The notes under the pieces: generated by a model | What the model saw: only the letters and a program-made list of their open reading frames with translations | Databases searched by the model: none | What the model was told of the DNA's origin: nothing | In this document: positions 2,631-22,332 of the stretch, piece after piece | How the letters are laid out: each line of letters starts with the position of its first letter | Numbering within the stretch: the first letter of the stretch is position 1 | Program-made: the position numbers and the translations under genes | IMG/VR virus record: IMGVR_UViG_3300032265_000415 | Coordinates: 1-24,009 of that record | DNA: 24,009 bases | Strand: one strand, 5' to 3' | Source: a virus

Positions 2631-3521
2631 ATGAGTGAACTCACTACATTTAACCCCTCAAAACTACCAGCCTTTGCAAAGAGCGCAGAATTATCTTCAT
2701 TAGCTAAGAGCTTAGCTGGCGGTGTCGGGGTCTCACAAAAACGTATCTCAACGAAGGGTGGAGTATTCCGTTTAATTGCTGGCGGTAAAGAAGTAGCCGC
2801 TATTGATGACAGACATCTTGACGTAGTTATTGTTCAAGCTGCTCCAAAAATTAGTCGTACATACTATGCTGGCACTTATGAGGAAGGAGCTAACTCAGCG
2901 CCTACTTGTTGGTCTGCTGATGGTGATACACCTGATGCAAGCATTGATGCGCCACAAGCGCCATCGTGCGCTAGCTGTCCACAAAATGCCAAAGGCTCAG
3001 GTCTAGGTGATTCACGTGCTTGCCGTTTTAGCCAGCGCTTAGCAGTTGTTTTGGCTAACGACATGGAAGGCGACGTAATGCAGTTAACCCTAGCGGCTAC
3101 TTCTATCTTTGGTAAAGAAGATGGGGACAAGCGCCCACTTCAAGCGTATGCCCGCTACTTGGCGGCTCAAAGCATTAACCCTGAGACCCTTGTTACCCGT
3201 ATGCGCTTTGACACTAAAGCCGCAGTACCCAAGTTGTTCTTCCAACCTATGCGTTGGTTGACTGATGATGAGTATGCGGTGTGCGCTAAGAAAGGGCAAT
3301 CTACCGACGCTAAAAACGCTATCACGATGAGCGTATCTAAAAAGAAAGATGAGCCTATTGCTATTGAAGGTAAGAAACCAGCCGCTAAAGTAGAAGCGGC
3401 TAGCGATGAAGTTGATGAACCCGAAGTACGCAAACCAGCTACTAAACCAAATGCAGTACCAGCTAAAAAAGCTGGCAAGTTGGCAGAAGTAATTGGTGAG
3501 TGGGAAACAGACGACGAGTAA
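2631..3521 (+). CDS. Cys4 protein with acidic tail, candidate ssDNA-binding protein
   Basis: This 296-residue protein has three visible parts. Residues 1-90 hold Ser/Ala-rich and beta-type sequence (VFRLIAGGKEV...). A Cys4 cluster, C93-x19-C113-x2-C116-x14-C131, probably binds zinc. The region up to about 225 is beta/alpha. Residues about 230-285 are a Lys/Ala/Pro linker, followed by an acidic C-terminus (GEWETDDE). A zinc-containing core, flexible linker and short acidic tail is the layout of phage ssDNA-binding proteins such as T4 gp32, and the acidic tip also resembles T7 gp2.5 and bacterial SSB. The position next to helicase and primase genes agrees. No family was recognised with certainty, so the function is inferred. 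The RBS AAGGAAA precedes ATG 2631. Confidence 0.85.
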   Translation: MSELTTFNPSKLPAFAKSAELSSLAKSLAGGVGVSQKRISTKGGVFRLIAGGKEVAAIDDRHLDVVIVQAAPKISRTYYAGTYEEGANSAPTCWSADGDTPDASIDAPQAPSCASCPQNAKGSGLGDSRACRFSQRLAVVLANDMEGDVMQLTLAATSIFGKEDGDKRPLQAYARYLAAQSINPETLVTRMRFDTKAAVPKLFFQPMRWLTDDEYAVCAKKGQSTDAKNAITMSVSKKKDEPIAIEGKKPAAKVEAASDEVDEPEVRKPATKPNAVPAKKAGKLAEVIGEWETDDE

Positions 3522-3983: not shown

Positions 3984-6845
3984 ATGAAGTCGCAGGAATT
4001 CCTAGCGACTGTGCTCCCGTCTTCAGGTAAGTATTGCGCCTGTGAACTGAGTACAGACAAGAAAGAGCATGTCTTTGTCGATGACATTGACAGTTTATAT
4101 AAAGTTGCCGTTGATTTTAGTCAACGGGGCTTAGATGCGTATTTTGCATTAGCGTCATTTGGAGAATCTAGTAGACTTTCTAAGAACGCTGTCAAGATGC
4201 GTGCGTTGTTTTTAGATATTGATTGCGGTGTTGGGAAAGACTATGATAGTAAACAGGCGGCTGCGGCGGCATTGGGTACCTTTTTGTCCGAAACTTCGCT
4301 AATAGACCTAGGCGAGCCATACGTCAATGATAGTGGTGGTGGATTACACGTCTACTGGCCTTTAACTGAAGACGCTGACATTGCGGTTTGGAAACCCGTT
4401 GCTGAAAACCTTAAGAGACTCTGCAAGCAGAAGAACTTCAACATAGACTTTGGTGTAACTGGCGATGCTTCTCGAGTACTGCGTGTACCTGACACCAACA
4501 ACTACAAGAAAGCTAAGCCACGTCTTGTGCGCATTAAAGTAGAGGGCAAGACATTTGAACTCGAACGAATCAACGCTATTCTTAAAGACCAGCTTACAGT
4601 AACCTACGAAGAAACTTCTTTAAATATTCCCGGCTCTCGCCCTAAAGAAACAGGGGCAACCAGTGTCAAGCTTCTTGAAAACTCAAGCACTTTCTTCAAA
4701 AACATAATTGAAAAAGCTAATGGCTGTGCACAGTTAAAACATTACCAAGAACACGCAAATGAAGACGGCATGGAGCCGTTGTTCTTCAACATAGTCTCAT
4801 GGGCTAAGAAATGCGATGATGGCTATGAGTGGGCGCAGAAGTTAGGTGCGATGCATCCGTATGATGAAGACCGCATCAACACTAAATGGAACAGCACTAA
4901 AGGCCCAAGTCCATGTTTAAAGCTAGATGAAGTAAATCCCGGTATCTGCACAAGCTGTCCGCATTTCGGTAAAATTACTAATCCACTAATATGGGGTAGA
5001 GAATTAAAAACTGACAATACTGAAAAAGAAATTGTCATGGAACGCATGGCTGTGGAAGAAACCGAAGAAGTAATAGCGCCAACAGTTACTAAGCCTGTTC
5101 CACCAAGAGGATATAGCTATGGTCAGAATGGCGGTATCTATGTAGATAAAACTGAGGAAGATTCTCAGGGAAACAAAACGCGGAAGCAGATTATGCTACT
5201 GCCTTATGACATGTTTGTAGTGGATATATTAAATCGTAATGGCGACCACATTGTACATATGGTTGCTTGCAGACCCGAAGGGGCGATTGATATTCTGCTT
5301 CCACAACGTGCTGTGGTAAGTAAAGATGAAACAGTTAAAGCTTTGGCAAACCAAAACATCATTGCAGCGTTTGGCGCTGGCAATGATAAAAATCTATCTG
5401 ATTATGTGCGAGCTTGCGTTGAACAGGCTAGTGCTAATAAGAAAGCAATTAAAATCCCCAACAACTGCGGATGGCAAGAGGACAAAACCTTTGTATATAA
5501 CAGTCATATCTATACCAAAACCGGAAAGAAAATATTTGTTCCTACACCCGGACTTGAAAACGTCAATCAGCACACACAGCCCTCAGGAACGCTTGATGGT
5601 TGGAAAGACGTTATTAACCTTTTTGTTAAGCGAGAAATATGGAACATCCTAACAATGGGTTTAGTTGGGCCTGCATCGTTGCTTATGGAGTTCTCAGGCT
5701 TTAACGGCATGACGTATCACTTGGGTTCTAGTGATTCAGGTACGGGTAAATCGTTAGCGCTTTCTATTGCCGAGAGTTTCTTTGGGCAACCGGGTATGTA
5801 TCGTGTAGGTCAAGCAACATCTGCGGTAGCTCTACAACAACGTCAGGGTATCTTGGGTAGCTTGCCTTTAGTAACTGACGAGATTACCGCTAAGAACCGA
5901 GGTGACTTTGAGTGGCTTCCTACATTCCTCCTAGACCAATCACAAGGTAAAGGCAAGGAGCGTATGGAGAGCAACGCTAACAAAGAGCGACTCAACGTAT
6001 TAAACTGGAAATCTACCGCCTTACTGACTTCTAATACCCACGTGTTTGACTTCTTAGGCGGTATGCGTAAGCACGCTTCACAGGCTGAGATGCTTCGTGT
6101 TTTAGAAGAATGTCCAACAGTTAAGTTGGAGTGGAATGATACAGAATCACTTATCCTTGACCAACTAAAAACCAATTACGGAGTTGTAGGCGATTTGCTT
6201 ATTACTTGGATGGTTCAAAATCAGGAGATTGTTAAAGATGTATTTAAGAAGACACACGAGATGCTCAAGAAAGAGTTCAATACAACGAACGATGAGCGTT
6301 ACTGGAGTGCTGGAAATGCTGCTGTTGTTGGTATTACCGTTCTTCTTGGCAGTAAGTATTCCAATATTATTGATATACCTGTTAAGCCTGTCATTGAAGT
6401 CCTTCGTGGAATGGTTGATAGAGCACGTGCGGTAGTATTTGGTTCTAGAAAATCTGCGGAAGATGTGCTTAATGCTTACACTCGTGAGAACTATGGCAAG
6501 TTTATTGTGGTTAAGAACTTCAACGGAGTGCTAGAAGCTACGCTAGGAGAAGGCGGTATTGTTGACCAGTCTATTACACGCTCACAAGTTGCAGGGCGAA
6601 TTGATAGGGGGCTAAACCCCGGCTGGATTGATTACTATATTGAAGAACAACTTCTGCGGTCGCACTGTGTATCAATGAGCTTTGGCTACTCAACCTTTAA
6701 GAAACAAATGGAAGCGCTCAAAGGCTTTAAGGTTAACTATATAGAAAAGAAAAATATGTTATCTAAAACTAAAGGCCCAAGTATGCGAGTTAATGTTATG
6801 CAAATTAGCCGCCGTATTTCAGACGAAGATGACTCGGAAGATTAG
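3984..6845 (+). CDS. Primase-helicase: AEP-type primase fused to DUF927-like helicase
   Basis: This is a 953-residue replication protein. The N-terminal third resembles archaeo-eukaryotic-type primases: LFLDIDCG with D78 and D80 as likely metal ligands, SGGGLHVYW at 117-125, and ASRVLRVPDTNNYK at 162-175. A middle Cys cluster follows (C311, C322, C325, perhaps H327) in a GPSPCL...CTSCP context, as in phage primase C-terminal regions. The C-terminal half is a P-loop ATPase of DUF927 type: SGTGKS with K589, Walker B LVTDE at about 629-633, then GKGKERM and a sensor-like TALLTSNTH. It should prime and unwind DNA at the phage fork. RBS AAGGGG precedes ATG 3984. It is the last gene of the plus block, and a terminator follows 20 nt after its stop. 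Confidence 0.88.
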   Translation: MKSQEFLATVLPSSGKYCACELSTDKKEHVFVDDIDSLYKVAVDFSQRGLDAYFALASFGESSRLSKNAVKMRALFLDIDCGVGKDYDSKQAAAAALGTFLSETSLIDLGEPYVNDSGGGLHVYWPLTEDADIAVWKPVAENLKRLCKQKNFNIDFGVTGDASRVLRVPDTNNYKKAKPRLVRIKVEGKTFELERINAILKDQLTVTYEETSLNIPGSRPKETGATSVKLLENSSTFFKNIIEKANGCAQLKHYQEHANEDGMEPLFFNIVSWAKKCDDGYEWAQKLGAMHPYDEDRINTKWNSTKGPSPCLKLDEVNPGICTSCPHFGKITNPLIWGRELKTDNTEKEIVMERMAVEETEEVIAPTVTKPVPPRGYSYGQNGGIYVDKTEEDSQGNKTRKQIMLLPYDMFVVDILNRNGDHIVHMVACRPEGAIDILLPQRAVVSKDETVKALANQNIIAAFGAGNDKNLSDYVRACVEQASANKKAIKIPNNCGWQEDKTFVYNSHIYTKTGKKIFVPTPGLENVNQHTQPSGTLDGWKDVINLFVKREIWNILTMGLVGPASLLMEFSGFNGMTYHLGSSDSGTGKSLALSIAESFFGQPGMYRVGQATSAVALQQRQGILGSLPLVTDEITAKNRGDFEWLPTFLLDQSQGKGKERMESNANKERLNVLNWKSTALLTSNTHVFDFLGGMRKHASQAEMLRVLEECPTVKLEWNDTESLILDQLKTNYGVVGDLLITWMVQNQEIVKDVFKKTHEMLKKEFNTTNDERYWSAGNAAVVGITVLLGSKYSNIIDIPVKPVIEVLRGMVDRARAVVFGSRKSAEDVLNAYTRENYGKFIVVKNFNGVLEATLGEGGIVDQSITRSQVAGRIDRGLNPGWIDYYIEEQLLRSHCVSMSFGYSTFKKQMEALKGFKVNYIEKKNMLSKTKGPSMRVNVMQISRRISDEDDSED

Positions 6846-6982: not shown

Positions 6983-9900
6983 TTAACGGGAAGCTTGGCG
7001 TTTTGTTTCGGCGACTTGCTTAAGGAAATCTTGAGCTAGCTTAGCGCGTTGTTGTTGTAGCTGGGTTAACTGTTCACGTTTTTGAACCGCAAACTGCTGT
7101 GGGCTCATGCCGGGGGGTAAACGCTGCTCTTTAACTTTGCGAATTTCGCCTGACAAGGCATCTAAGTTAGCCTTCATGGTAGCCGCCATATTTCCAACAC
7201 CAATTTCTTTTTCGTACGTTTTACCGTACGCTGCGGCTTCTTTCTCAGCGCCCTTCTCCACTAAATCTTTATAGGTAGCCGATCTTTGCGATGCTTGTTG
7301 TAGCACCTCATAGGCACGCATAGTAATGCCGCCAGCATCTTCAGGCTGGAACATCTGACCAAACACAGGCAAGTCGGCCATTGTGCCGTCAGGTTTTACA
7401 TTTTCACTTGACGCAAGCATAGGGTTAACTATCGAAGCAACTGTCGTAAAAATACCGCCTAGATAGCTCTTGGCTAAGTAGTCTAATTTAATAGGGGAAA
7501 TCCCTAACATGTCGCCAAGCATCTTAGCCGGTTCGCTGGTTGTGTCGTAGGCACGTTTGCCGGGTTCCATTTCTTGTATACGCTTGCTTTCAATGTCCCG
7601 ACCAGTATACAAAGAACGATTTGCTACAAGTTCAATAGGCGCTTTAATAGCGGTAGGAACACCTAAAGGATTTGTAGCATTTAGCACAGCCTTAATCGCA
7701 TCAAGACCTTCTCTAGCTTTCTCATCACTGTAAGCCATGTTTACTACGGCTTCGGGCAGCGCTTTAAAAATATAGCCTGCTTCAAATGGTATAGGCAATC
7801 TAAATGCTTCTTTACCTTCTTTGCCCATTCCGGGCACAAACCAATTCAAATACTTCTGTTCAGGTGTAGCGTTCTTGTAAGAATCGTTATCTTGTTGTGC
7901 AATTGCATACAGAATCGACATACCCGCAATCATGGTGCCACGTTTGATTAACTTGTTTTGTAAGTCCAGCTTTTTAGCGTACGGCATCTTGCCAGTAAAC
8001 GCTTTGTACATTACGTTGTAGCCTTGGATAGCCGAGTTAAAGAACGGCACCATTGTATTAACCCAGTGCATAGATGGAGAAGCGCCACGAGTATTAAAGT
8101 TCATGGACTCCATCGTGGCAATCTGCGCCTGCATATCCGTCAAGCCTTGCTTGCGGAAGCTATCATAAAGAACTGAACGAGTAGAAGCATCTGCCTCAGT
8201 CGCCATCTTATCCATGAAAGCCAAAGCGCCAGTCACACTAGCTTTACCTGATTGAAGTCTAGTTACGATTTGGTTTAAATCTTCAGCACGACCTGTGTAA
8301 ATTTCACCGCCCAAAATACCTGACTCTTGCAAGTGTTTGTTAGTTAAACCAGCGCCACGTACAGCGTTGTGGACTTCCTTAAGTGATGACAGAATTGGTA
8401 CAAAATTACCGCCTGTTGTTAGCCAAGCAGACATTGGATCACGAACTAACTGCTTGTAGGCATAGAAAGGATTGCGTGTAACGCCCTTACGGAGCCAATT
8501 AGCTGGCATACCCATCAAACGCACAATACCCGGAAGCTGGGTTGGAATACCTTCCATACCCTTAACTAAAAGCTGTGGGCTAATATCGCTAAACTCAGCG
8601 TTCTTAGAGGTATCAATAATGGCATGATAGTCTTTGCCGTTAGCTTTAAAACGAATAACATCAGGGCCAATAGTGCCTTCACCTTTACGAATCTCAGCAA
8701 TACCTAAATCTTGTAGAGTTCTAGCTACGCTGGCAGTTGCATTATTACGCAAAGCCATTTCGGTAATCATATTGGTGTTAGCAACAGAAGATTTAAAAAA
8801 GTCTTGAATTTTTTGATCGCCGCCAACTAACTCGTGTAAATATGGCTGGTCTTTTAATGTACCAATACGGATAGGGTTTTCAGAACCGATAATTAAATCT
8901 ACATTGCCGCCACGTGAACGATAGTACGGTATATAGTTTTTGTTTTTAAACTCAGCGGCTTTTTCTTTAGCAATGTATCCTGAGTCAGCTAAGCTATCAA
9001 TTAAGCCGTTATTGTATTCTTGATATGTCTTAAACGCATTAACAAATGCGGGGTCAGCATCGCCTGACTTCTTGGCAGCTTCCAACATAGCGGGAGTAAT
9101 GTTAGCGCTAATCTCTCCATCGGACACCAACTTCTTATATCCAACACGCTCAGCACGTTTAGCTGCAGCATAGGCGGTAAACATTTCATTTAACGCTTGG
9201 GGATTACCCTTAGTAGACTGCAACAACTCTTCAAGAACTTGCTTCATACCGGGGCCACCGGAAGCACGAATAGTCACTTCGCCTGTTACTGGGTCTTTAG
9301 CAAATTTACGTGCGCCGTTAACAACAGTCTCGCTAGTAATATTTGTGCGCTGACCATGCATCAGCAAGTTGTACATCATCTGCGAGCCAGCGCCTTCTTC
9401 GCCCATACGACGCCAAATTTCTTTAAGCGGGGCTAATCGGTCAACAAACTGCGTATTAAAAGCAGCTAAGTTACCCTTCAAAGACTCTTTTATACCCTTA
9501 GGCTTAGCAACTAAATGCCCAGCCAACTGCGCTAGTGGGTCATTCTCGTTTTCAAACTTAGCTTTACGATATGCGGTCTGTAGGCCGGTTTCTCCTGTGC
9601 GCAACTCGCTTTTACCGCTTAGCATATCTCTAGATTTTTTAAGCATAAATAGTAAATCACTGTCTGTGACTTTACTAAACTCAATTAGGTTATGCTTTTG
9701 TAGCCATTCTCTTATTTGACCAATTAATTCTTTTATAAAACGGGCAGACTTTTGAATAAATGATTTGTCATCTAAACGGCCTTCTTCTACGTGTGCAATA
9801 AGCTCTCGTATTCCTACTAACTTTTCTTCTTCAGGAGTTAATTTAGAGTCGCTGTTTTCACGTGCTTGACGAATAGCCCGAACAACTTTGTCCATAACGC

Positions 9901-12900
9901 CCATTTCACGAGCAACATGAAGCATACCATTTTTATGCTGAGCTTCCAGTCTATCTGCTAAACGCAGTAAGCCTTCTTTACCAAGCAAACGGTCAACACC
10001 AAAGTGCCCAAATGCTTCGTGGGCTAGTGTTTTTTGGAAGTCTAAGAGGTCATAGTGCGTATTTCCAACAGCAACAATAGTGCCGTCTTTCAATACAGCG
10101 CCGTTCATTTCTCGACGTTCTGTTTCCGGAATTTGGTTTTTTACATAGTCAGGTAAACCGTCAAATGAATCAGCGTATTCAAAACGTATACCCTCAGGTA
10201 ATCCAGCCTTAAACTTTTCAGCAGCAGCAGCGGTTTCTTTTACGTTTGCGGTAAACTTACCTTTTGTTCCCAGTCTGTAGGCATTACCCAAATCATCTCT
10301 AGTAAAACGAGGGCTATACTCAGGTTCATACTCACGTTCAGAACGCAAACCTTCTTCAAGTTCTTTAGCCGCATTAGCTGTACCGCTTTTTAAAGGCTTT
10401 AGTCTTTCTTTACGAGCAGGAGCATTACCGGCTATTGCTAACGCACGTTCGCCTTTAGCAAGCTTTTGTTGCTCAGCTAAGTTTTCTTTTTCAAGCTCTA
10501 GTTCTTTGTTTAAGGCATCAACAACGCCCTCAAACTTTTTCCTGTCTTTTGTTTTTGGGCTTGCAAGTCTACGTTTCTTATCATTAACTTCAATACGCTC
10601 TTCAAGCGCTTTAATATAGGCTTTAGAATCAGCAATAATGTCTTTGCGCTTGGGTTTATCTAGTCCAAGTTGCTTACGGATAGCTTGCATTTCCTTAGCG
10701 CCTTCAGCGCTTTCTTCACGCAGCTTGGCACGTTTCTCTTCTGTAGTAAGTGGGGCTTTCTTTTCTACTACACGCTTTTGTAGAATTTCATCTTTAGTGC
10801 CGGGCAATACTACGTTGGTACCAATAACTTCTTGACGAATGGTAGGTTCAGCGGCTTTCTTTTCAAACGTAGCTTGTTCAGCTACACGTCTTTCCTTAAC
10901 ACGTTTCTCTAGCGCAGCTTGGTTAGCAACTTCAATCCTGTCAATTTCTTTGCTAATAGGGGCGGCTTGTTCGCTAGTTACTTTGTTCTCGTCAAGGGCT
11001 TCTTTTAAAACCTTACGAGTCATCTGAACAGAACGCTTATTGTTCTCGCCTTCAATAGTAAAAAATTCTCTGTCACGCGCACGAATGTCTTCTAAATACT
11101 TTTCAGCTTGCGTTACAGTTGCTTCTAGTTCTTTTACGTATTTTTTGTAGCCTTCTTTAAACTTGCCTTTTTCGCCGGCGGCAACAGCTTCGTATTGTTT
11201 AATCTTTTCTTTTGTCTGAGCAATATCAAACAACAGTTTGTATTCAAGCTGGGTACTAAATAAACTACGCAACGCATCGCTTCTAGATATTGCCGCTTGT
11301 TTATTCTCAGCAAAAGATTCTTCTAAACGAGACGTTAAACGCTCTGTTAACGACGTTTTTGTTGGCACTGCAACTTTAGCTTTTGTTCCACGAAGAGATT
11401 TTAAAATCTCTGTTTCTCTTTCCTGAAGTTTTTCAATTTTACTTAAATGCGCTTCCCTCAAACTTATAGATTTGTTAATGCGGTTATCTATAAAGTCTTT
11501 TGTATAGCGTTTTACATCGGCTTCGCTTGGTTTGTATACTTCAGGCGTTGGCTTTTTACTTTCGTTTTCAAGCTGTAATCTTACTTTTTCTAATTCAACA
11601 AAAGCTTCTTTATTTGTTTCACCAAACAACGGTTTTTTAGCTTTTTCTAGTGCAGCTTGCGCCATCTTAATAGCGTGCTGTAACTTAGTTCTTTGGATGC
11701 CGACAAACTTCATAAAGTTGGCCGGGGTAGCCCGCACTGTAGCAAGAGGCGCTAATTCTTTTTCACCAAACAAGCTACGTTGATCTGGACTTATACCAGA
11801 CGGAGCATAGCGCTCCATATCAATCTCTTCTTGCTTGGCACGCTCGGCTTCAAGACGAGCATTTTCTTTACGGCCTGCTTCTACTTCACGACGTAGTGCT
11901 TTAACTTTTTCAAGATTGGGGCTTTTCTTATTTAACTCTTCTTTAAGGGCTAATGTAGCGTCACGTTCTTGGCGTAGATTAAATCCTTCGGCTGGACGGA
12001 AACGACTTTCACCTTGCTCGTACTTGGCTTTAATACCCGCAAGTTGTTTTTCTAATTGAGTAGGTTCTTCTTCGTTGATACGTTTTAACACAGATTCATT
12101 TTTGTTAGCTACTACTTTATCCAACGTATCTTTAAGGTCAAAAGCCAGTTTTAAAGACTCATCAGTAGTTAACAGTTTTTGTTTAGCTTCGGCACGTTTA
12201 GCGTTAACTTCATTAAGAGAGTGCGTAATATAATGCCCAATTACACCCGGCGCTGCGTATGGAGAATTAATCGGTTCTGGAGAACGCAAGTCGTCTACTA
12301 AATCAGTTAACGTATCATGTGCTCTACGCTGTTCAACAACAGCTGAAGCTAATCTGTTTCTTGGGCTAACCTTTTCAGGTAACGGCTCATTGGCATTAAT
12401 TAAGTTACGTTCTTTAGCACTAGCATTTACTGCATCAACCAGCTGACCAACTAAGTGCTGGTCTTTTGGACCGAAAGTATCAGTTAACTCTTTAAGACGT
12501 TTAGCGTGTGCTTTTTCTTCTGCCGTTGGCTCAAACGCCAAGCCTTGTTGTACTGGCGCAGGAGGCTCTTCTAACTTCTCACGAGCTGTTTTGGCTTTTT
12601 CTAACTTATCTAAGGCAGCATCAAACTTGGCTCTATCAAAAGACTCGCCACTATATTTTTGTAAATCGGCATTATGCTTCTTGATTTCTTTATCAAGCGC
12701 ATCCATTTTTTCTTTTACTGTTGGCTCAGGTTTTGGTAGAGCCTCAAGTTGTAAATCTGCGGCTTCTAAAGACTTACGTAGGGTTTCTAAACTACCTGAT
12801 AATTCTCTAGCTTTTTGTGTGTCGCCAGCTTTTATGGCTTGTTGCATCTGAACTTGTACAGCCTCAACTTGTCTTTCAACACTAGGCTTAAACGTATTCT

Positions 12901-14383
12901 CAAGCATAAAGCGGTGTTGCAACATCTCGGCTTTATCTGCCTGTTCTTTAGCGGCGCCAGTTTCTCTTTCGCCTACAGTAAGTGTGCTTGGTGCACCGGG
13001 TAGTTCAGTAGCTTTAGGGGTTTCGCCTAATTGAAGTTCACGTGCTTGTTGTATCTGTTCTTGTCTTGCTGCGGTAGCTTGTTCACGTTGTGCTTTTAGT
13101 GCTTCTAAACGACCTTGTAAAGTTTGCGCTACTTCGCCTTCGGCAACAGGTGCCTGTGGCACACCGGGTCTTTTATTAATTTCTTCAAGTTGTCTTTGTA
13201 ATTCGTTAAGCTGGTCTCTACCAGCTTGCTTTTCTTCTTTAGGTAAACCCTTACCTTTAAGTGCTTCTTTAATATCATTCATCTGCTGAATGATTGGTTC
13301 ACGCTCTGCTTGTAATTGTGCTTGACCTTCGGGGCTAGCATAGTGTTCTTCTAAAACACCCGCTTGTTGTTCTCTAGCAATACCAGTTCTTTGCGCTTCG
13401 CCTTTAGCCCGTGCATCATCAATAAGCTTCTTAGCACGAGCAGGTTGTCCAGCATGTAGTAAACCAAAAAATGGAGCAACTAAGCCCATCTCTTTAGCGG
13501 ATTCTGTATATTGATTTAGCGCTTCTGGGCTAAACATTTCTTGACCGGCAGCGTAGCGTTGTCCTGCTTGACCGACTGTGGACATCAATGTACCCGCACC
13601 GGCAGCTTCTGTTGTACCTTTTAAAACACTCATTACCCTACCGCTAATTTGTGCAGTAGCATCAGCCGCTTTAATTTCACCACTTAATACTTTAGGTGCT
13701 AGTAATTGGGCTTCTTGAGTAGCCGTTTTTAAAGCAAAGCCTTTCATAACTCCGCCAACGATAGCACCGCCTAAAGAATCAACGGCTGTTTGGGCCATTG
13801 CAGGAATTAAAGCACGACCGTAATCAGGCTGTTTTCCAGCTTCTTTTTGAGCAGTAATGTTTTCACCAAAGTGAATAGGGAAGTTAGTTGCAGCAAACGC
13901 CGCAGCGCCTGCAAGAGGGGCAGCAATTAATGTTTCGGGGGCAAGAGCAGAGGCAGCAGCGCCAGCTGCAACAGGGGCTCCATATCTACCGGCTACGCTA
14001 CCAACAGCTTGTCCAACAGGCTCCGTGATATATTTGCTGAGTCCGGTACCCAATAAAGATGTAATACCTTGACGTTTTGCAACACCAATATCGGCTTCTG
14101 TAGTTGGCTCAAATTGACCAGCGGCTTCTTCTTTAGTTTCTTTACCGTATTTAGCAATATCTTCACTACCAAACAAATTGCCAAGACCTTCAAGCGCAGA
14201 ACCTGCGCCGCCTTTAAAACTAGACTTGAGAGCTGGCATGAGGCCAGTCTTTTCTTTATGCTTTGCGTATTCTTCAGGAAAAGCCTCGGGAAATTTTTCT
14301 TGAGCATATTTAAGCGCTTGCTCTTCGTTCATCCCCTCCGGGACTTTTGTATATCCACCATCAGGTAGTGTTAAATACGGCAT
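6983..14383 (-). CDS. Giant virion/ejection (polyvalent) protein, zincin-like motif plus LPD38-like region
   Basis: At 2466 residues this is by far the largest gene. Order of parts: a tag at 1-36 with LPDGG and VPEGM; Gly/Ala-rich hydrophobic segments at about 120-310 that could enter membranes; long charged coiled-coil stretches at about 315-1340; then a putative zincin peptidase with HEAFGH at 1455-1460 and RELIAH at 1526-1531, whose E1527 could be a third ligand. After about 1620 comes a globular part, and at about 1900-2330 a region like large polyvalent protein-associated domain 38, including MNFNTRG at 2094-2100 and VPFFNSAIQGYN. The C-terminus is again coiled coil. Such proteins travel in the virion and are thought to be ejected; peptidase activity is inference. 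It is the last gene of the minus block. AGGAAAA precedes the ATG. Confidence 0.85.
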   Translation of the reverse strand: MPYLTLPDGGYTKVPEGMNEEQALKYAQEKFPEAFPEEYAKHKEKTGLMPALKSSFKGGAGSALEGLGNLFGSEDIAKYGKETKEEAAGQFEPTTEADIGVAKRQGITSLLGTGLSKYITEPVGQAVGSVAGRYGAPVAAGAAASALAPETLIAAPLAGAAAFAATNFPIHFGENITAQKEAGKQPDYGRALIPAMAQTAVDSLGGAIVGGVMKGFALKTATQEAQLLAPKVLSGEIKAADATAQISGRVMSVLKGTTEAAGAGTLMSTVGQAGQRYAAGQEMFSPEALNQYTESAKEMGLVAPFFGLLHAGQPARAKKLIDDARAKGEAQRTGIAREQQAGVLEEHYASPEGQAQLQAEREPIIQQMNDIKEALKGKGLPKEEKQAGRDQLNELQRQLEEINKRPGVPQAPVAEGEVAQTLQGRLEALKAQREQATAARQEQIQQARELQLGETPKATELPGAPSTLTVGERETGAAKEQADKAEMLQHRFMLENTFKPSVERQVEAVQVQMQQAIKAGDTQKARELSGSLETLRKSLEAADLQLEALPKPEPTVKEKMDALDKEIKKHNADLQKYSGESFDRAKFDAALDKLEKAKTAREKLEEPPAPVQQGLAFEPTAEEKAHAKRLKELTDTFGPKDQHLVGQLVDAVNASAKERNLINANEPLPEKVSPRNRLASAVVEQRRAHDTLTDLVDDLRSPEPINSPYAAPGVIGHYITHSLNEVNAKRAEAKQKLLTTDESLKLAFDLKDTLDKVVANKNESVLKRINEEEPTQLEKQLAGIKAKYEQGESRFRPAEGFNLRQERDATLALKEELNKKSPNLEKVKALRREVEAGRKENARLEAERAKQEEIDMERYAPSGISPDQRSLFGEKELAPLATVRATPANFMKFVGIQRTKLQHAIKMAQAALEKAKKPLFGETNKEAFVELEKVRLQLENESKKPTPEVYKPSEADVKRYTKDFIDNRINKSISLREAHLSKIEKLQERETEILKSLRGTKAKVAVPTKTSLTERLTSRLEESFAENKQAAISRSDALRSLFSTQLEYKLLFDIAQTKEKIKQYEAVAAGEKGKFKEGYKKYVKELEATVTQAEKYLEDIRARDREFFTIEGENNKRSVQMTRKVLKEALDENKVTSEQAAPISKEIDRIEVANQAALEKRVKERRVAEQATFEKKAAEPTIRQEVIGTNVVLPGTKDEILQKRVVEKKAPLTTEEKRAKLREESAEGAKEMQAIRKQLGLDKPKRKDIIADSKAYIKALEERIEVNDKKRRLASPKTKDRKKFEGVVDALNKELELEKENLAEQQKLAKGERALAIAGNAPARKERLKPLKSGTANAAKELEEGLRSEREYEPEYSPRFTRDDLGNAYRLGTKGKFTANVKETAAAAEKFKAGLPEGIRFEYADSFDGLPDYVKNQIPETERREMNGAVLKDGTIVAVGNTHYDLLDFQKTLAHEAFGHFGVDRLLGKEGLLRLADRLEAQHKNGMLHVAREMGVMDKVVRAIRQARENSDSKLTPEEEKLVGIRELIAHVEEGRLDDKSFIQKSARFIKELIGQIREWLQKHNLIEFSKVTDSDLLFMLKKSRDMLSGKSELRTGETGLQTAYRKAKFENENDPLAQLAGHLVAKPKGIKESLKGNLAAFNTQFVDRLAPLKEIWRRMGEEGAGSQMMYNLLMHGQRTNITSETVVNGARKFAKDPVTGEVTIRASGGPGMKQVLEELLQSTKGNPQALNEMFTAYAAAKRAERVGYKKLVSDGEISANITPAMLEAAKKSGDADPAFVNAFKTYQEYNNGLIDSLADSGYIAKEKAAEFKNKNYIPYYRSRGGNVDLIIGSENPIRIGTLKDQPYLHELVGGDQKIQDFFKSSVANTNMITEMALRNNATASVARTLQDLGIAEIRKGEGTIGPDVIRFKANGKDYHAIIDTSKNAEFSDISPQLLVKGMEGIPTQLPGIVRLMGMPANWLRKGVTRNPFYAYKQLVRDPMSAWLTTGGNFVPILSSLKEVHNAVRGAGLTNKHLQESGILGGEIYTGRAEDLNQIVTRLQSGKASVTGALAFMDKMATEADASTRSVLYDSFRKQGLTDMQAQIATMESMNFNTRGASPSMHWVNTMVPFFNSAIQGYNVMYKAFTGKMPYAKKLDLQNKLIKRGTMIAGMSILYAIAQQDNDSYKNATPEQKYLNWFVPGMGKEGKEAFRLPIPFEAGYIFKALPEAVVNMAYSDEKAREGLDAIKAVLNATNPLGVPTAIKAPIELVANRSLYTGRDIESKRIQEMEPGKRAYDTTSEPAKMLGDMLGISPIKLDYLAKSYLGGIFTTVASIVNPMLASSENVKPDGTMADLPVFGQMFQPEDAGGITMRAYEVLQQASQRSATYKDLVEKGAEKEAAAYGKTYEKEIGVGNMAATMKANLDALSGEIRKVKEQRLPPGMSPQQFAVQKREQLTQLQQQRAKLAQDFLKQVAETKRQASR

Positions 14384-14409: not shown

Positions 14410-16215
14410 TTACTTGTATTCTTTTCCGCCAGTTGGCGCTGTACTACTTAGTAGCCCGGGTATAAATTGTTTTTTTAAACCTTCTTCATCTAAACCACTA
14501 GTTTCAAGATAGTGCTTTTTCAAAGAAGGACTCTTACTAAGTATCTCGTATTTTATCGTATTAATTGCCTGTTGACGTTGCGCTGGATTATTTAAATCAA
14601 AGTTGGAGTATTTAGTCATTCCTTTGATTCGGTCTTCAGCCGTTTTATCTAACCCAGCTATCATTTGGTCGTACTTGAGAGCTTGCGCGTTTTGTGCGGC
14701 ATTAGCGTAATGTTGTTGATATACCTTGTTTCTTTCCATAGCAGCTTGAGCAGATAGTCCTGCGGCTTCACCAGTCATGTTAGCTTTTTGTGCATCTGCA
14801 TAAGACTGAAGACCCTGTAAACCACCAGCGCCTATATTAGACAGACCGTACGGTGAACGCTGTCCAGCAATACCTAAACCAGCAGCCATCAAAGCCAAGC
14901 CGGGTGCTTGCTTTCTAGATTGCTCTAGTCCTGCCATGTACTTATCAAGCATAGATTGAGAACTGTCGGTTGTTGAAGGTGCTGTCGGTGTTGTAGGCGC
15001 TGTTAATGTGGTTTGATCTTTGTTAGTTACAGGAACTACCGGTTCTGCTGGCGCTGCTGGTGCGGCAGCTGGTTTATTTAATTCTGGCGCTACTTGTGCC
15101 GCTGAATATGCTTCTGGGGTTGAAGCTCCAAAATAACTTTTTGCGCCCTTAGCAATACCGCTAATACCTTTCTTTATATCAACGCCCTTATTTTTTAAAC
15201 GTGTATATGCAAGTTGTAAATCGCGGCCAGCTTCAGATTCTGCTGCTTCTGTTGGAGGATAGTAGTAACCCTCATCATCCATAGGCAAATCCCCGCCTCC
15301 AGCTAAAGAAACAATACCGCCTTGAGCAAGATTAGCTACGTACATGCGGGTTTCTTTAGGCACGGCTTTTTCTTTGCTGCCGTGTTTAAGCCACTTATCT
15401 ACGTTGCCCGGACCCCAGTTGTAAGCCATAGCAGCTAACTTAGGGTCTTTGTATTTGTGTTCTAAACTAGCTAAATATTTAACACCGCCGTTAATATTTT
15501 CATATGGGTCATTTAGATTTGTAACGCCAAGTTCTTTAGCTGTTTTAGGCATCAACTGCATTACACCGGTAGCGCCAGCTTTAGATACTGCATTAGCTGG
15601 GTCTTTGTGGCCGCCAGTCTCTTTGTGCATTACGTGTTGTACTAAATCCCAAGATGCGCCATGTTTTTTAGCTGCTTCGGCAGCAATATCTTTAAATGTA
15701 CCAGTTGCTGCAGCTATTCCTTGTGGTGCTGCAGTTGGAGTAATAGAAGAATAAGGTGTCAGTTTTGGGTTAGCAACAGCCATAATGCCAGCACCTAAAC
15801 CACCTAAGTCGCCTTGACGTGCCATTAACGAATCTAGCTCTTCTTGGTCTGTCTCTTGTTCATCTTCATCAGGGTCAGTAAAACCACCAGTAGCAAAAGA
15901 TACTAAACCACCACCGGCACCCATCGCAGGTTCGCCCATAGATTCCATAGTAGGAGCAGGTAGTTGGTCTATGCCAGCTTGAGGTTGCGGTAAATCACGA
16001 GCAAGCATTTGGTCACGCACTGTAGGTTGTTTAGCGCCCATTTGCGCTTGTTGACCTTTGTTTGCGGCTTCTAATTTATCGCGCTGTTGTTTAGCGGACA
16101 TGGCAACAGCCATAGGCAAAGAATTATCTTTTCCCTGTAAAACAGCTAATAAACGAGAGTCAGGGAAGATGCGCGGATCGAGCGCCATCTTATACATTTG
16201 TTCCATGCCGAGCAT
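14410..16215 (-). CDS. Virion-associated lytic transglycosylase (SLT domain), 601 aa
   Basis: Residues about 170-295 form an SLT-type lysozyme-like domain. HKETGG has the likely catalytic E199; GATGVMQLMPKTA is at 214-226; AMAYNWGPGNV is at 262-272. This enzyme class cleaves the MurNAc-GlcNAc bond of peptidoglycan, here probably to open the wall locally during DNA entry. The N-terminal 100 residues are Gln/Ala-rich and disordered-looking, with a GG motif at 101-111 (GGGLVSFATGG); a second GG motif is at 299-308. The C-terminal half is Pro/Ala/Thr-rich (about 370-420) and then helical and Gln-rich. It lies between the Gln-rich protein and the giant protein, as expected for a core/ejection component rather than the lysis endolysin, which is separate at 21739-22332. 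Confidence 0.88.
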   Translation of the reverse strand: MLGMEQMYKMALDPRIFPDSRLLAVLQGKDNSLPMAVAMSAKQQRDKLEAANKGQQAQMGAKQPTVRDQMLARDLPQPQAGIDQLPAPTMESMGEPAMGAGGGLVSFATGGFTDPDEDEQETDQEELDSLMARQGDLGGLGAGIMAVANPKLTPYSSITPTAAPQGIAAATGTFKDIAAEAAKKHGASWDLVQHVMHKETGGHKDPANAVSKAGATGVMQLMPKTAKELGVTNLNDPYENINGGVKYLASLEHKYKDPKLAAMAYNWGPGNVDKWLKHGSKEKAVPKETRMYVANLAQGGIVSLAGGGDLPMDDEGYYYPPTEAAESEAGRDLQLAYTRLKNKGVDIKKGISGIAKGAKSYFGASTPEAYSAAQVAPELNKPAAAPAAPAEPVVPVTNKDQTTLTAPTTPTAPSTTDSSQSMLDKYMAGLEQSRKQAPGLALMAAGLGIAGQRSPYGLSNIGAGGLQGLQSYADAQKANMTGEAAGLSAQAAMERNKVYQQHYANAAQNAQALKYDQMIAGLDKTAEDRIKGMTKYSNFDLNNPAQRQQAINTIKYEILSKSPSLKKHYLETSGLDEEGLKKQFIPGLLSSTAPTGGKEYK

Positions 16216-16225
16216 AATTTATTCC

Positions 16226-17347
16226 TTAAGGTGTACCAAATGCTTTGTATGCGCCTAAACCAGCTAAACCCAAACCTGTTGCTTGGCTCAAAGTACTTGG
16301 AGCTGCTTGATAAGATTGAGTTGTTGTTGCTTGCGTTGGTAATCCACGCAACATGGCGTTCATAAAAGACAGCTGTTGTTGTGGGTATTGTTGTGCAGTA
16401 GCGTAGTTTTGAACAGCCTGATTAATAGTATTCTGTTGCTGTTGTTGTTCTGCAGTACCCGCTGTCATTTGCGCAGATGCAATGCCTTGTTGCGCCGCTA
16501 GTTGTTGCCCGCCCAAAGCACCTAATTGATTAGCTGCACTTAAACCTTGACCGATACCCTGCATACCTGCTTGCTGCCCTTGCAGACCTAAGCCTGCACC
16601 ATACTGCATAGCTTGTTGTGCCTGTTGGTACGCTTGGTTGTATCCTTGACCAATGGCTTGTTGTTGTGCCATCAAGGTATTTTGTTGATTCAATGCTTGT
16701 TGTAACGCATTACGTGAACCGCCGAAAGCGCCAGCTTGTGTAGCTGCACCTTGTTGTTGAGCACCTTGAATACCGCCTTGTTGAGCAATCATGTTAAGTT
16801 GTGGCTGTAACGATTGCTGCACGTACGGGTTCATAAAAGCACCCATAGCATACGGGTTTGTTGCCATCTGGTTGTAACGATTACCAGCTTGCGCTTCTTG
16901 ACCAGCTAAACCAAAAGCCGCAGCACCGCCAGCACCAGTAGCTTGAGAAGCAGCTTCATATTGACCGGGTACTTGCAAGTTGGCCGTGGTGTTCATAGCT
17001 TGATTTTGCATTGGACTAAAAGGTGCTACATAGTCCTGTGGGTTTTGACTATATGGTACGTAAGGTTTTACGCCATTAATTTGTACAGAACCATCTTCAT
17101 TTGTTGAAGTGTTAAATAACTGTTGTTGAGTTGCGCCAAGCATTGTTTCTGCATAAGGACGCAAGTAGTCAGGTATGTTTGTATTTTGAACTGTAGTTTG
17201 TGTAGGCGCTGCAGGAGGAGGAGGGGGAGGAGAACCGCCACCACCGCCACCAAGAACATAACCGCCGTTGGCTTTTTTATAGGTAGCAGAATTGCCTAGG
17301 GTTTCACCTAATGCGTAAAGCTCCCGTCTTGAGTAAGTTGTTTTCAT
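16226..17347 (-). CDS. Gln/Ala-rich structural protein, probable internal virion component
   Basis: This 373-residue protein has strongly biased composition. A short basic N-terminus (residues 1-25) leads to GG motif ANGGYV at 26-31, then six Gly (33-38) and six Pro (40-45). From about residue 95 it is dominated by Gln, Ala, Gly, Asn and Tyr, with many short QQ and AQQG repeats and EQQQQQ near the end. No enzyme motif is seen. It starts 4 nt inside the upstream GNAT-like gene (ATGA overlap), so translation is coupled, and it lies between two core/ejection genes. A structural role in the internal core or tail is inferred from the context. The six-Pro run would be a strong ribosome-stall site. 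Confidence 0.8.
   Translation of the reverse strand: MKTTYSRRELYALGETLGNSATYKKANGGYVLGGGGGGSPPPPPPAAPTQTTVQNTNIPDYLRPYAETMLGATQQQLFNTSTNEDGSVQINGVKPYVPYSQNPQDYVAPFSPMQNQAMNTTANLQVPGQYEAASQATGAGGAAAFGLAGQEAQAGNRYNQMATNPYAMGAFMNPYVQQSLQPQLNMIAQQGGIQGAQQQGAATQAGAFGGSRNALQQALNQQNTLMAQQQAIGQGYNQAYQQAQQAMQYGAGLGLQGQQAGMQGIGQGLSAANQLGALGGQQLAAQQGIASAQMTAGTAEQQQQQNTINQAVQNYATAQQYPQQQLSFMNAMLRGLPTQATTTQSYQAAPSTLSQATGLGLAGLGAYKAFGTP
17213..17251 (-). repeat. Poly-Gly/poly-Pro codon tract with hairpin potential
   Basis: Six Gly codons followed by Ser and six Pro codons (residues 33-45 of the Gln-rich protein). Gly codons (GGN) and Pro codons (CCN) can pair at two of every three positions, giving an imperfect GC-rich hairpin inside the coding region near the gene start. 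Confidence 0.7.
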
Positions 17348-17757
17348 ATTTTTGTCTCTACAATTCTATACCGCTCTTCAAATCCATAACGGCTCCACAA
17401 ACGGGCAATTGATTCTCTAGCTGCACCCTGTATTTTAGTAGCTCCGTTAGCCTTTAGTAAATCTTTAAATTGCCCAAATGTGTTTTTATTTGAAATTAAT
17501 TTACCGCCAATAAAAGTAATAAACGCAACTCTGTCATTTGGATAATTTAAAAACGATATTGTCGCTGCTCCATGCAGTTCCCCGTTTTCATCTACTGCTA
17601 CCACCAAAAGCCATTGCCCCGAAGTAACGTAAACGCGTACCTGATCCAACGTGTAATCGTCTCCACAGTAGTCAATAGCATTTGCAATATACTTTTCAAC
17701 CATTGGCCAAGCTTGACTAACGTACTGTACAGGAACATGTTTTATCTCTAAGCTCAT
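17344..17757 (-). CDS. GNAT-fold-like protein, probable virion assembly/internal component
   Basis: This 137-residue protein matches the N-acetyltransferase (GNAT) fold pattern: an alpha-helical start, the strand WLLVVAVDENGELHGAATI at about 49-67, strand VAFITFIGGKL, a helix, and ending with ARLWSRYGFEERYRI, where YGFE is a common GNAT end motif. The usual acetyl-CoA loop (R/Q-x-x-G-x-G/A) is not clear, only IGGK, so catalysis is doubtful. Proteins with this fold occur among virion-internal genes of T7-like podoviruses; that comparison is from memory. The gene overlaps both neighbours by 4 nt (ATGA), fixing it in the 409-aa to 373-aa operon and supporting a structural or chaperone role over metabolism. 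Confidence 0.78.
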   Translation of the reverse strand: MSLEIKHVPVQYVSQAWPMVEKYIANAIDYCGDDYTLDQVRVYVTSGQWLLVVAVDENGELHGAATISFLNYPNDRVAFITFIGGKLISNKNTFGQFKDLLKANGATKIQGAARESIARLWSRYGFEERYRIVETKI

Positions 17758-21738: not shown

Positions 21739-22332
21739 TTACCCTAGTATTGACAGCGCTTTAGCAATTTTAGCTTTGCGGTCATCCAGTCCGATTAATC
21801 CGCCATTAATACGCTTTGTCATTGTATCGTAATCCTTGCTATCCGCCAACGCATTTAGCCCTTTTTTATTCCAGAACCAAGATGCGCTTAAGACCGCATA
21901 TTTAGGATCAAGCAGCAATTCAGGATGAATAAGAAGATCCACACCCAAATTAGATCCGCAGTTGGCATAGTTGTCTTTGCCAGTAAGTTGTATAAGACCA
22001 CGCCCGTGATACTTCCAGCCATCACCAGATTCTTCATCGCCATTTCCTAAACGTCCGCTGTATACCTTATTGGCTATTTTTTCGGGGTTATTTGCATAAG
22101 CTTCAGCCACAACGTTATCAGTAAATCTGCTGGGCCAAACACGCATAAGTGCAGTAGCGGAGTAATGAAGGTTCTCTTCCAATACTTTAAAATTTCCAGA
22201 TTCATGAGCACACTGTCCTATAAAGAAAGCCTGCCGTGCAGGGGTGGAAATATCATACTTAGCAAAAGCTTCTTCTAGTGGGCCAAGCCACTTGTGGTCA
22301 ATTCCTAAAGCATCTAGCTGGTCATAGGTCAT
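21739..22332 (-). CDS. Endolysin, glycoside hydrolase family 19 (chitinase-like)
   Basis: This 197-residue protein is about one GH19 domain and no other part. The key features are AHESG with E44 as the likely catalytic acid, EENLHYSA with E53 as a possible second acid, the YHGRGLIQLTGKDNY motif typical of GH19 and related lysozymes, and ASWFWNKKGLNALAD near the end. GH19 endolysins hydrolyse peptidoglycan glycan chains at the end of infection. No signal peptide is seen, so release depends on the holin. Its start overlaps the holin stop by 4 nt (ATGA), giving a compact lysis operon. Confidence 0.93.
   Translation of the reverse strand: MTYDQLDALGIDHKWLGPLEEAFAKYDISTPARQAFFIGQCAHESGNFKVLEENLHYSATALMRVWPSRFTDNVVAEAYANNPEKIANKVYSGRLGNGDEESGDGWKYHGRGLIQLTGKDNYANCGSNLGVDLLIHPELLLDPKYAVLSASWFWNKKGLNALADSKDYDTMTKRINGGLIGLDDRKAKIAKALSILG

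Follow-up and report, generated by a model that had tools for sequence, protein, structure and literature searches.

A giant polyvalent phage protein with a predicted, exchangeable zinc peptidase and an N-terminal tag paired with the tail of the upstream gene product

The window, the 24,009-base stretch of viral DNA analyzed here, is dominated by a single giant gene that occupies 31% of its length and is read as 2466 uninterrupted codons from an ATG start. The initial annotation had placed this frame correctly at 6983-14383 without giving its strand, which is the minus strand. Every part of the giant is under purifying selection (dN/dS 0.11-0.28 in comparisons with the related loci L007 and L008), and this, coupled with its occurrence in 41 IMG/VR loci, argues that it is no chance frame. 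These loci, two of which are the contigs of L002 and L003, were found in a scan with a three-row alignment, and complete giants range from about 1960 to 3330 aa. Megablast of the window against 50,697 phage records gave no match, a scan of genome contigs found no relative, and tblastn returned 148 records, all below 60% identity, with the C-terminal part alone matched among the 50 matches listed. Conservation is uneven along the giant: mean majority identity lies at 0.19-0.38 up to residue 1360 and at 0.35-0.73 beyond it, and residues 1360-2466 are conserved in the 41 IMG/VR loci and, remotely, in cultured phages. In the 79%-identical relative L002 (also L014, from the same contig), the giant is split near its C-terminus, at 3165-3174, by a frame change that leaves 1057-aa and 288-aa frames overlapping by a few bases, reflecting either a sequencing error or a real frameshift.

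In transcription order, the giant is preceded by genes for proteins of 803 aa (phrog_3287, a virion protein), 100, 409, 137, 373 and 601 aa, the last three of which are described, together with the features of the giant, in Table 1. By eye the 137-aa protein is acetyltransferase-like, a likeness with no counterpart among database matches. The order is similar in most of 16 inspected loci, where proteins of ~330-510 aa and ~460-1040 aa usually come before the giant; the exceptions are L045, with a single 847-aa gene, and the Vibrio phage D274 locus L004. With our own SLT model, the domain was detected immediately ahead of the giant in 13 of 57 entries (the window, L003, L006, L007, L008, L009, L010, L011, L013, L015, L026, L037 and L041); some of these 13 are copies, and many of the 57 are truncated. 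Judged by gene order and domain matches, the giant closes a podovirus-type ejection module. Elsewhere in the window, a GH19-type endolysin gene (21739-22332, minus strand; Pfam E 1.9e-9) lies ahead of the structural genes in transcription order, and two replication-type genes on the plus strand encode a 953-aa DUF927 protein with a weak primase-polymerase match (3984-6845) and a 519-aa SNF2-type helicase (570-2129). DUF927 and SNF2-type genes are also found beyond the giant in L002 and L003.

Table 1. Features of the giant gene and its upstream neighbors (window coordinates).
Feature	Coordinates	Strand	Evidence
Giant ejection-type polyvalent protein, 2466 aa	6983..14383	-	Open frame, dN/dS, homologues
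N-terminal tag, residues 1-38, PDG type: MPYLTLPDGGYTKVPEGMNEEQALKYAQEKFPEAF	14270..14383	-	Alignment of 12 tags; L022/L020 swap
Gly/Ala-rich, mildly hydrophobic region, residues 100-330	13394..14086	-	Hydropathy, composition, consensus of alignment A3
Long charged helical (coiled-coil-like) region, residues 331-1354, poorly conserved	10322..13393	-	Periodicity, conservation profile, PDB coiled-coil matches
Predicted zincin-type metallopeptidase domain, residues 1355-1610	9554..10321	-	29-row alignment, AF2 model, fold neighbors, local divergence
HEAFGH active-site motif (HExxxH), residues 1455-1460	10004..10021	-	H, E, H invariant in 29/29 rows
E1527, predicted third zinc ligand (in RELIAH)	9803..9805	-	Invariant in 29/29 rows
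Conserved C-terminal core, residues 1611-2466	6986..9553	-	Highest conservation in the giant; phrog_18222 at 1646-2451
LPD38 domain, residues 2167-2340	7364..7885	-	Pfam PF18857, E 3.3e-29
Lytic transglycosylase protein, 601 aa, directly upstream of the giant	14410..16215	-	Pfam SLT E 8.9e-23 at residues 178-282; adjacency in relatives
C-terminal tail (last 25 aa) of the upstream protein, proposed tag partner	14413..14487	-	Tail/tag comparison
373-aa protein, phrog_4287 'DNA ejection protein'	16226..17347	-	PHROG E 4.7e-6; conserved position
137-aa module protein	17344..17757	-	Weak phrog_22172 match; 135-150-aa counterpart in the same place in 11/16 loci

The giant shares with T7 gp16, of the gp14-gp15-gp16 ejectosome, the position of largest and last gene in a three-gene ejection set, and the passages of PMC8954989 on this complex also describe contact between the N-terminal part of gp16 and gp15. 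In gene order, the giant occupies the place of gp16; homology was seen neither to gp16 (hhalign probability 0.2% against the single T7 sequence, with no PDB profile match) nor to the N4 virion RNA polymerase (0.6% against the single N4 sequence). In contrast to gp16, which carries its lytic transglycosylase as an N-terminal domain, the giant has this domain encoded in the neighboring gene, and it carries a predicted peptidase in addition. The suggestion of the initial annotation that one protein merges the functions divided in T7-like phages among several internal virion proteins did not hold, and we rejected a merged T7 set: counterpart components are encoded next door as separate 'DNA ejection' (373-aa, phrog_4287) and lytic transglycosylase (601-aa, SLT) genes, and relatives keep a similar order.

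Within the giant, the same annotation had outlined an N-terminal tag, membrane-active-looking segments, about 1000 residues of coiled coil, a zincin-like motif and an LPD38-like region. An alignment of 12 tags bears out the tag; the zincin-like motif is also real, with invariant catalytic residues and in the form HExxxH rather than HExxH, as is the LPD38 region, which scores 102.8 bits against a curated Pfam cut-off of 27. As to membrane activity, residues 40-330 are indeed Gly/Ala-rich, but there is little hydropathy to go with this composition, just three 19-residue windows in the whole giant having a mean above 1.2 (best 1.52). The supposed coiled coil survives as an amphipathic, charged helical stretch at residues 331-1354, which is E/K/R/Q-rich, has a periodicity of z 3.7 relative to shuffles and, in a profile of giant residues 1-600, matches coiled-coil PDB chains at about 370-550. 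Because the C-terminal core shows the same amphipathic periodicity (z 3.9), we describe the middle region just as long, helical and coiled-coil-like. Sequence searches with the giant and with profiles of its parts gave no useful homologue of solved structure, the N-terminal profile leading to coiled coils.

The peptidase and core of the giant align with residues 3408-4510 of Burkholderia phage JC1 gp69, including its HEAFH peptidase (hhalign E 2.5e-20, 944 columns). JC1 gp69 is a DarB-like protein encoded by the last gene of its virion module, listed with LPD38 and LT-like domains in a table of PMC9144972. According to that paper, virions purified on CsCl yielded 51 of its unique peptides, covering 15.61% of the sequence, which would suit an intact as well as a cut protein. 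It differs from the giant in its length of 4515 aa, its methylase/helicase, its own LT domain and its HExxH motif, and it has none of the tag types described here. For a DarB-like methylase/helicase dyad in the giant, there was no Pfam, PHROG or NCBIfam match, and a comparison of JC1 proteins with the module proteins of the window other than the 373-aa protein, the transglycosylase and the giant gave no match among those listed. Bacillus phage Pony gp20, likewise behind an SLT gene, aligns with the core at hhalign E 6.7e-29; the core is therefore also present in a phage of a Gram-positive host. An AF2 model of residues 1340-2466 is poor (pLDDT 64.4, pTM 0.44) and retrieved helix matches only from the PDB, and a search of BFVD gave 63 matches at E <= 0.001, with many annotated 'large polyvalent protein' and two LT_GEWL among the matches listed.

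Since it combines the peptidase with an LPD38 core and is homologous to the virion protein JC1 gp69, the giant is a further member of the known phage 'polyvalent protein' kind. In the passages of Iyer et al. 2017 (PMC5512222) devoted to them, such proteins are large, are encoded among virion genes, and carry LPD38 and MPTase domains, including the HEXXXH form of the latter; the giant likewise has at least two unlike domains, LPD38 and the predicted metallopeptidase, and is encoded among late/virion genes. N-terminal tags, upstream tails and peptidase cassette exchange are absent from those passages, and the paper contains 0 occurrences of 'N-terminal motif'. The place of the giant in the ejection module, together with the presence of its homologue JC1 gp69 in purified virions, supports by analogy the earlier view of a virion or ejection protein, and the giant is probably packaged and injected into the host. 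Its length, helical middle and late-gene position would also suit an ordinary tape-measure or structural tail protein that is not injected; we consider this very improbable, given the ejection-protein match next door, the presence of peptidase and LPD38, and homology to gp69 of JC1, whose tail measures 20 nm.

We take residues 1355-1610 to be a predicted zinc peptidase, an assignment that we base on invariant residues, with the fold as weak support, and the peptidase that the initial annotation had considered possible for the giant is supported as a prediction from conservation, model and fold neighbors. In an alignment of this region from 29 of 39 giants (A6), H1455, E1456, H1460, E1527 and A1530 are invariant in all rows and H1443, a His at the end of the preceding strand, is nearly so; the motif reads HExxxH in 27 rows and HExxH in two (L030, L041). 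The giants left out of A6 are L031 and L033, which have no motif, L034 and L037, whose motif lies elsewhere and is not alignable, L004 and L005, from another collection, and L010, L035, L046 and L047, which are copies or near copies. The AF2 model of the domain (pLDDT 74.6, pTM 0.70) runs from an N-terminal helix through strands to the HExxxH helix and a Glu helix, which is the zincin order given in PMC5512222, where the passages on zincin-like MPTases also distinguish a HEXXXH class and place a strand-end His in another class. Foldseek with this model found nothing in the PDB at E <= 0.001, and no Pfam model fits the domain. In VIA-align, the 18 best rows are chains of the lethal-factor/PPEP zincin group or of its degenerate homologues (Z 7.0-5.5, rmsd 3.8-5.7, 140-175 residues aligned), and IrrE lies lower (Z 5.3), with Z below 8, the level the tool calls safe, throughout. 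For the HExxGH form of the motif we also considered a DPP III-like (M49) enzyme, whose absence from the fold-search list excludes nothing.

Divergence within the giant is concentrated at the peptidase in several close comparisons. Between the window and its nearest relative, L015, identity is 51% in the peptidase versus 77% and 90% in the 300-residue flanks, and third codon positions go from 0.57 and 0.66 in the flanks to 0.43. Because third positions fall too, the drop points to import of a diverged allele rather than to fast protein change alone. For the pair L016/L017, flank identity reaches 99% and 96%, compared with 72% in the peptidase (third positions 0.98, 0.82 and 0.54), and across 21 close pairs, many of which share members, third-position identity dropped by more than 0.1 relative to the downstream flank in 13 and rose in none. 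The pair L007/L008, below the identity limit of that test, shows the reverse, with 88% inside the peptidase versus 79% and 73% outside. Collectively, these comparisons show that the peptidase behaves as a recombining cassette, apparently swapped between close relatives, which looks new; such an exchangeable peptidase would signal that a function exercised in the first minutes after infection is changing. Host takeover and self-processing are both possible roles. It is quite conceivable, although we lean slightly against it, that the enzyme releases the giant's own parts instead of acting as a host-directed effector, and in this respect passages of PMC5512222 propose self-processing for polyvalent proteins and describe phage P1 DdrB as processed before packaging. 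Exchange between close relatives looks like a changing target, with the reservation that cleavage sites in the giant could change along with the enzyme.

The N-terminal tag is exchanged as well. We coined the names PDG, MDL, ARF, AGD and GYS for the tag types encountered, and complete giants (n = 34 rows) comprise 18 PDG, including the window, nine MDL, three ARF, two AGD, one GYS and one other. On the core tree, built by a quick method with no bootstrap, the tags require at least 10 changes, and PDG/MDL taken alone require four. Just after the tag, L020 (MDL) and L022 (PDG) share a stretch of ~480 bases with 88-100% DNA identity; the tag itself and about 350 bases ahead of it are unrelated. 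Tags also extend beyond the giants: a scan for the MDL tag found 24 loci, including proteins outside the giant's family, and the ARF-tagged proteins include one, in L105, with a match to phrog_26400, 'DNA ejection protein', two, in L132 and L129, with matches to the function-unknown families phrog_5880 and phrog_36512, respectively, and others with no match. PHROG and tblastn searches with the short tags gave nothing useful. The idea that the tag is a signal common to several proteins of one phage was set aside, no such sharing being seen among the open frames of the loci compared. One MDL-tagged giant, in L050 (10001-16363, cut at 2121 aa), has a HExxH motif and a faint LPD38-core likeness (hhalign E 0.0044), and is possibly a remote branch of the core.

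We show that, at the level of sequence, the tag comes in several interchangeable types and that each of them goes with a particular tail at the C-terminus of the protein encoded upstream, an arrangement that looks new. Among the best 80 of 131 loci with the ARF (MPIARF-type) tag, a KFLGFE-like tail lies upstream in 79 of the 79 with an upstream frame, L143 having been dropped for lack of one. Starting from the tail instead (VKFLGFE followed by a stop, 68 matches), we found an ARF tag immediately downstream in 64; the remaining four cannot be read as gene ends or sit at a contig end (L158 and L217, with a stop directly before the match; L187, with 30 open codons; L216, which ends 25 nt on), and no orphan KFLGFE tail occurred among the 64 evaluable junctions. 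The two scans overlap in the same or related contigs, and by our own reading 30 of the 68 tail-first contigs are absent from the 80. For the MDL (MDLSKLS-type) tag, a helical tail resembling LPSxxxIxAELxRR was recognized by eye directly upstream in 16/16 scan loci examined and in 9/9 cases when the giants' upstream proteins were compared. Regular expressions composed after the tails had been seen matched 70 of 73 frames upstream of ARF tags and 18 of 25 upstream of MDL tags; on 788 other frames they matched two (ARF) and one (MDL), the former two, L037 and L042, again lying upstream of ARF-tagged giants.

The pair found in the window itself is the least clear-cut type. PDG subtype 1 (L007, L009, L011 and L015) has tails that are 38-68% and tags that are 74-100% identical, and subtype 2 (the window and L008) is looser, at 48% in the tail and 58% in the tag. 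Between L008 and L009, identity is 93% in the sequence behind the tag, 53% within it and 4% in the tail, and the core tree groups L008 with L009 and the window with L015, unlike the subtypes. PDG-type tails agree only roughly, those of L236 and L239 being unlike among 17 PDG scan loci. By our own reading, an AGD-like tag with a helical tail upstream is present in the cultured Rhodoferax phage P26218, and this type is known from three examples.

It is tempting to hypothesize that each tail binds its tag. By a modest margin of confidence, we favor a modular docking code that would join consecutive ejection proteins in tailed phages, with each matched pair moving as one unit from one injection protein to another, unrelated one. 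Some 10-20 residues at the C-terminal end of one protein would then bind the first ~36 of the next, and, with the same slight leaning, we distinguish several separate types: the strand-like KFLGFE tail would go with the hairpin-like tag MPIARFxxPDGR and the helical tail LPSxxxIxAELxRR with the tag MDLSKLSxxDLxAL, and the PDG pair of the window would be a further type.

Tail and tag adjoin in the DNA, and the co-exchange in L020/L022 can therefore be simple linkage. More generally, there might be no contact at all, and the pair would be a short DNA cassette at the stop/start junction, co-inherited because it is contiguous, for example through translational coupling. Stop and start overlap by one base in 62/64 tail-first junctions, the single contiguous tract in L020/L022 spans both the upstream 3' end and the tag, and similarity between L008 and L009 is also lost in the upstream 3' end, all as such a cassette would predict. 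However, KFLGFE is written in 30 distinct DNA versions, with synonymous change free, and 21 near-invariant tag residues have codon entropies of 0.11, 0.05 and 1.31 bits at positions 1-3, a codon variation indicating that selection acts at the protein level. Moreover, the MDL pair recurs across its 24 loci in proteins that fall, by single-linkage clustering at E 1e-3, into 11 families on the tagged side and 10 on the upstream side, combined in 13 ways, and KFLGFE tails without a tag are missing from the evaluable junctions. We regard linkage without contact as unlikely, though far from negligible. Tails and tags could also be two separate capsid-targeting or processing signals read by a common third partner, such as a scaffold, portal or prohead protease. 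T4 internal proteins use terminal targeting/processing signals, and the extreme N- and C-terminal positions of tags and tails are where such signals would be expected; a common partner alone leaves the one-to-one match of tail and tag types across unrelated bodies unexplained, and we consider it improbable.

Tail-to-tag docking has a parallel in the docking domains of polyketide and peptide synthetases, where a short C-terminal tail is matched to an N-terminal element of the next protein in several types. These belong to a different system, and the phage case is known as a pairing of sequences alone. Literature searches, judged in part by the titles of the papers listed, gave nothing on KFLGFE, nor on ejection or internal virion proteins with docking, tails or motifs shared by adjacent genes, which is no proof that nothing has been published.

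Taken as a whole, the explanation we find most satisfactory, and hold with moderate confidence, is that the giant travels inside the capsid and is injected along with the DNA, being the final and largest part of a podovirus ejection module. Docking of its N-terminal tag to the C-terminal tail of the lytic transglycosylase, the product of the gene immediately upstream, would set a defined head-to-tail order in which these proteins are packed or exit the capsid. The helical stretch in the middle would span or fill space, the C-terminal core ending in LPD38 would be the part common to all such proteins, serving as a packaging or translocation hub, and the zinc peptidase would be exchangeable enzymatic cargo that cuts the giant itself after delivery or a host target. 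Physical docking, the order of ejection and the substrate of the peptidase are what we infer. Binding of tail to tag would bear on how ejected proteins are packed and on the order of their exit from the capsid. In that case, ejection order could be read from gene ends, hidden injection proteins could be found in unannotated phages, and the pairing could be tested directly with short peptides; if the code is true, a phage could fit its conduit with a new giant as cargo, and sequence alone would predict which proteins travel together.

T7 gp15 (L072, 1-69) ends in ...TPKFIYGRKE, a loosely KFLGFE-like sequence that may be due to chance. Other N-terminal types lie downstream of the upstream tails LPVLDTKTGKIVYR, in the JC1 locus L074 (5507-7039), and ILRWNPRTNSFE, in L241 (1462-2778), and these ends are perhaps further tail/tag types.
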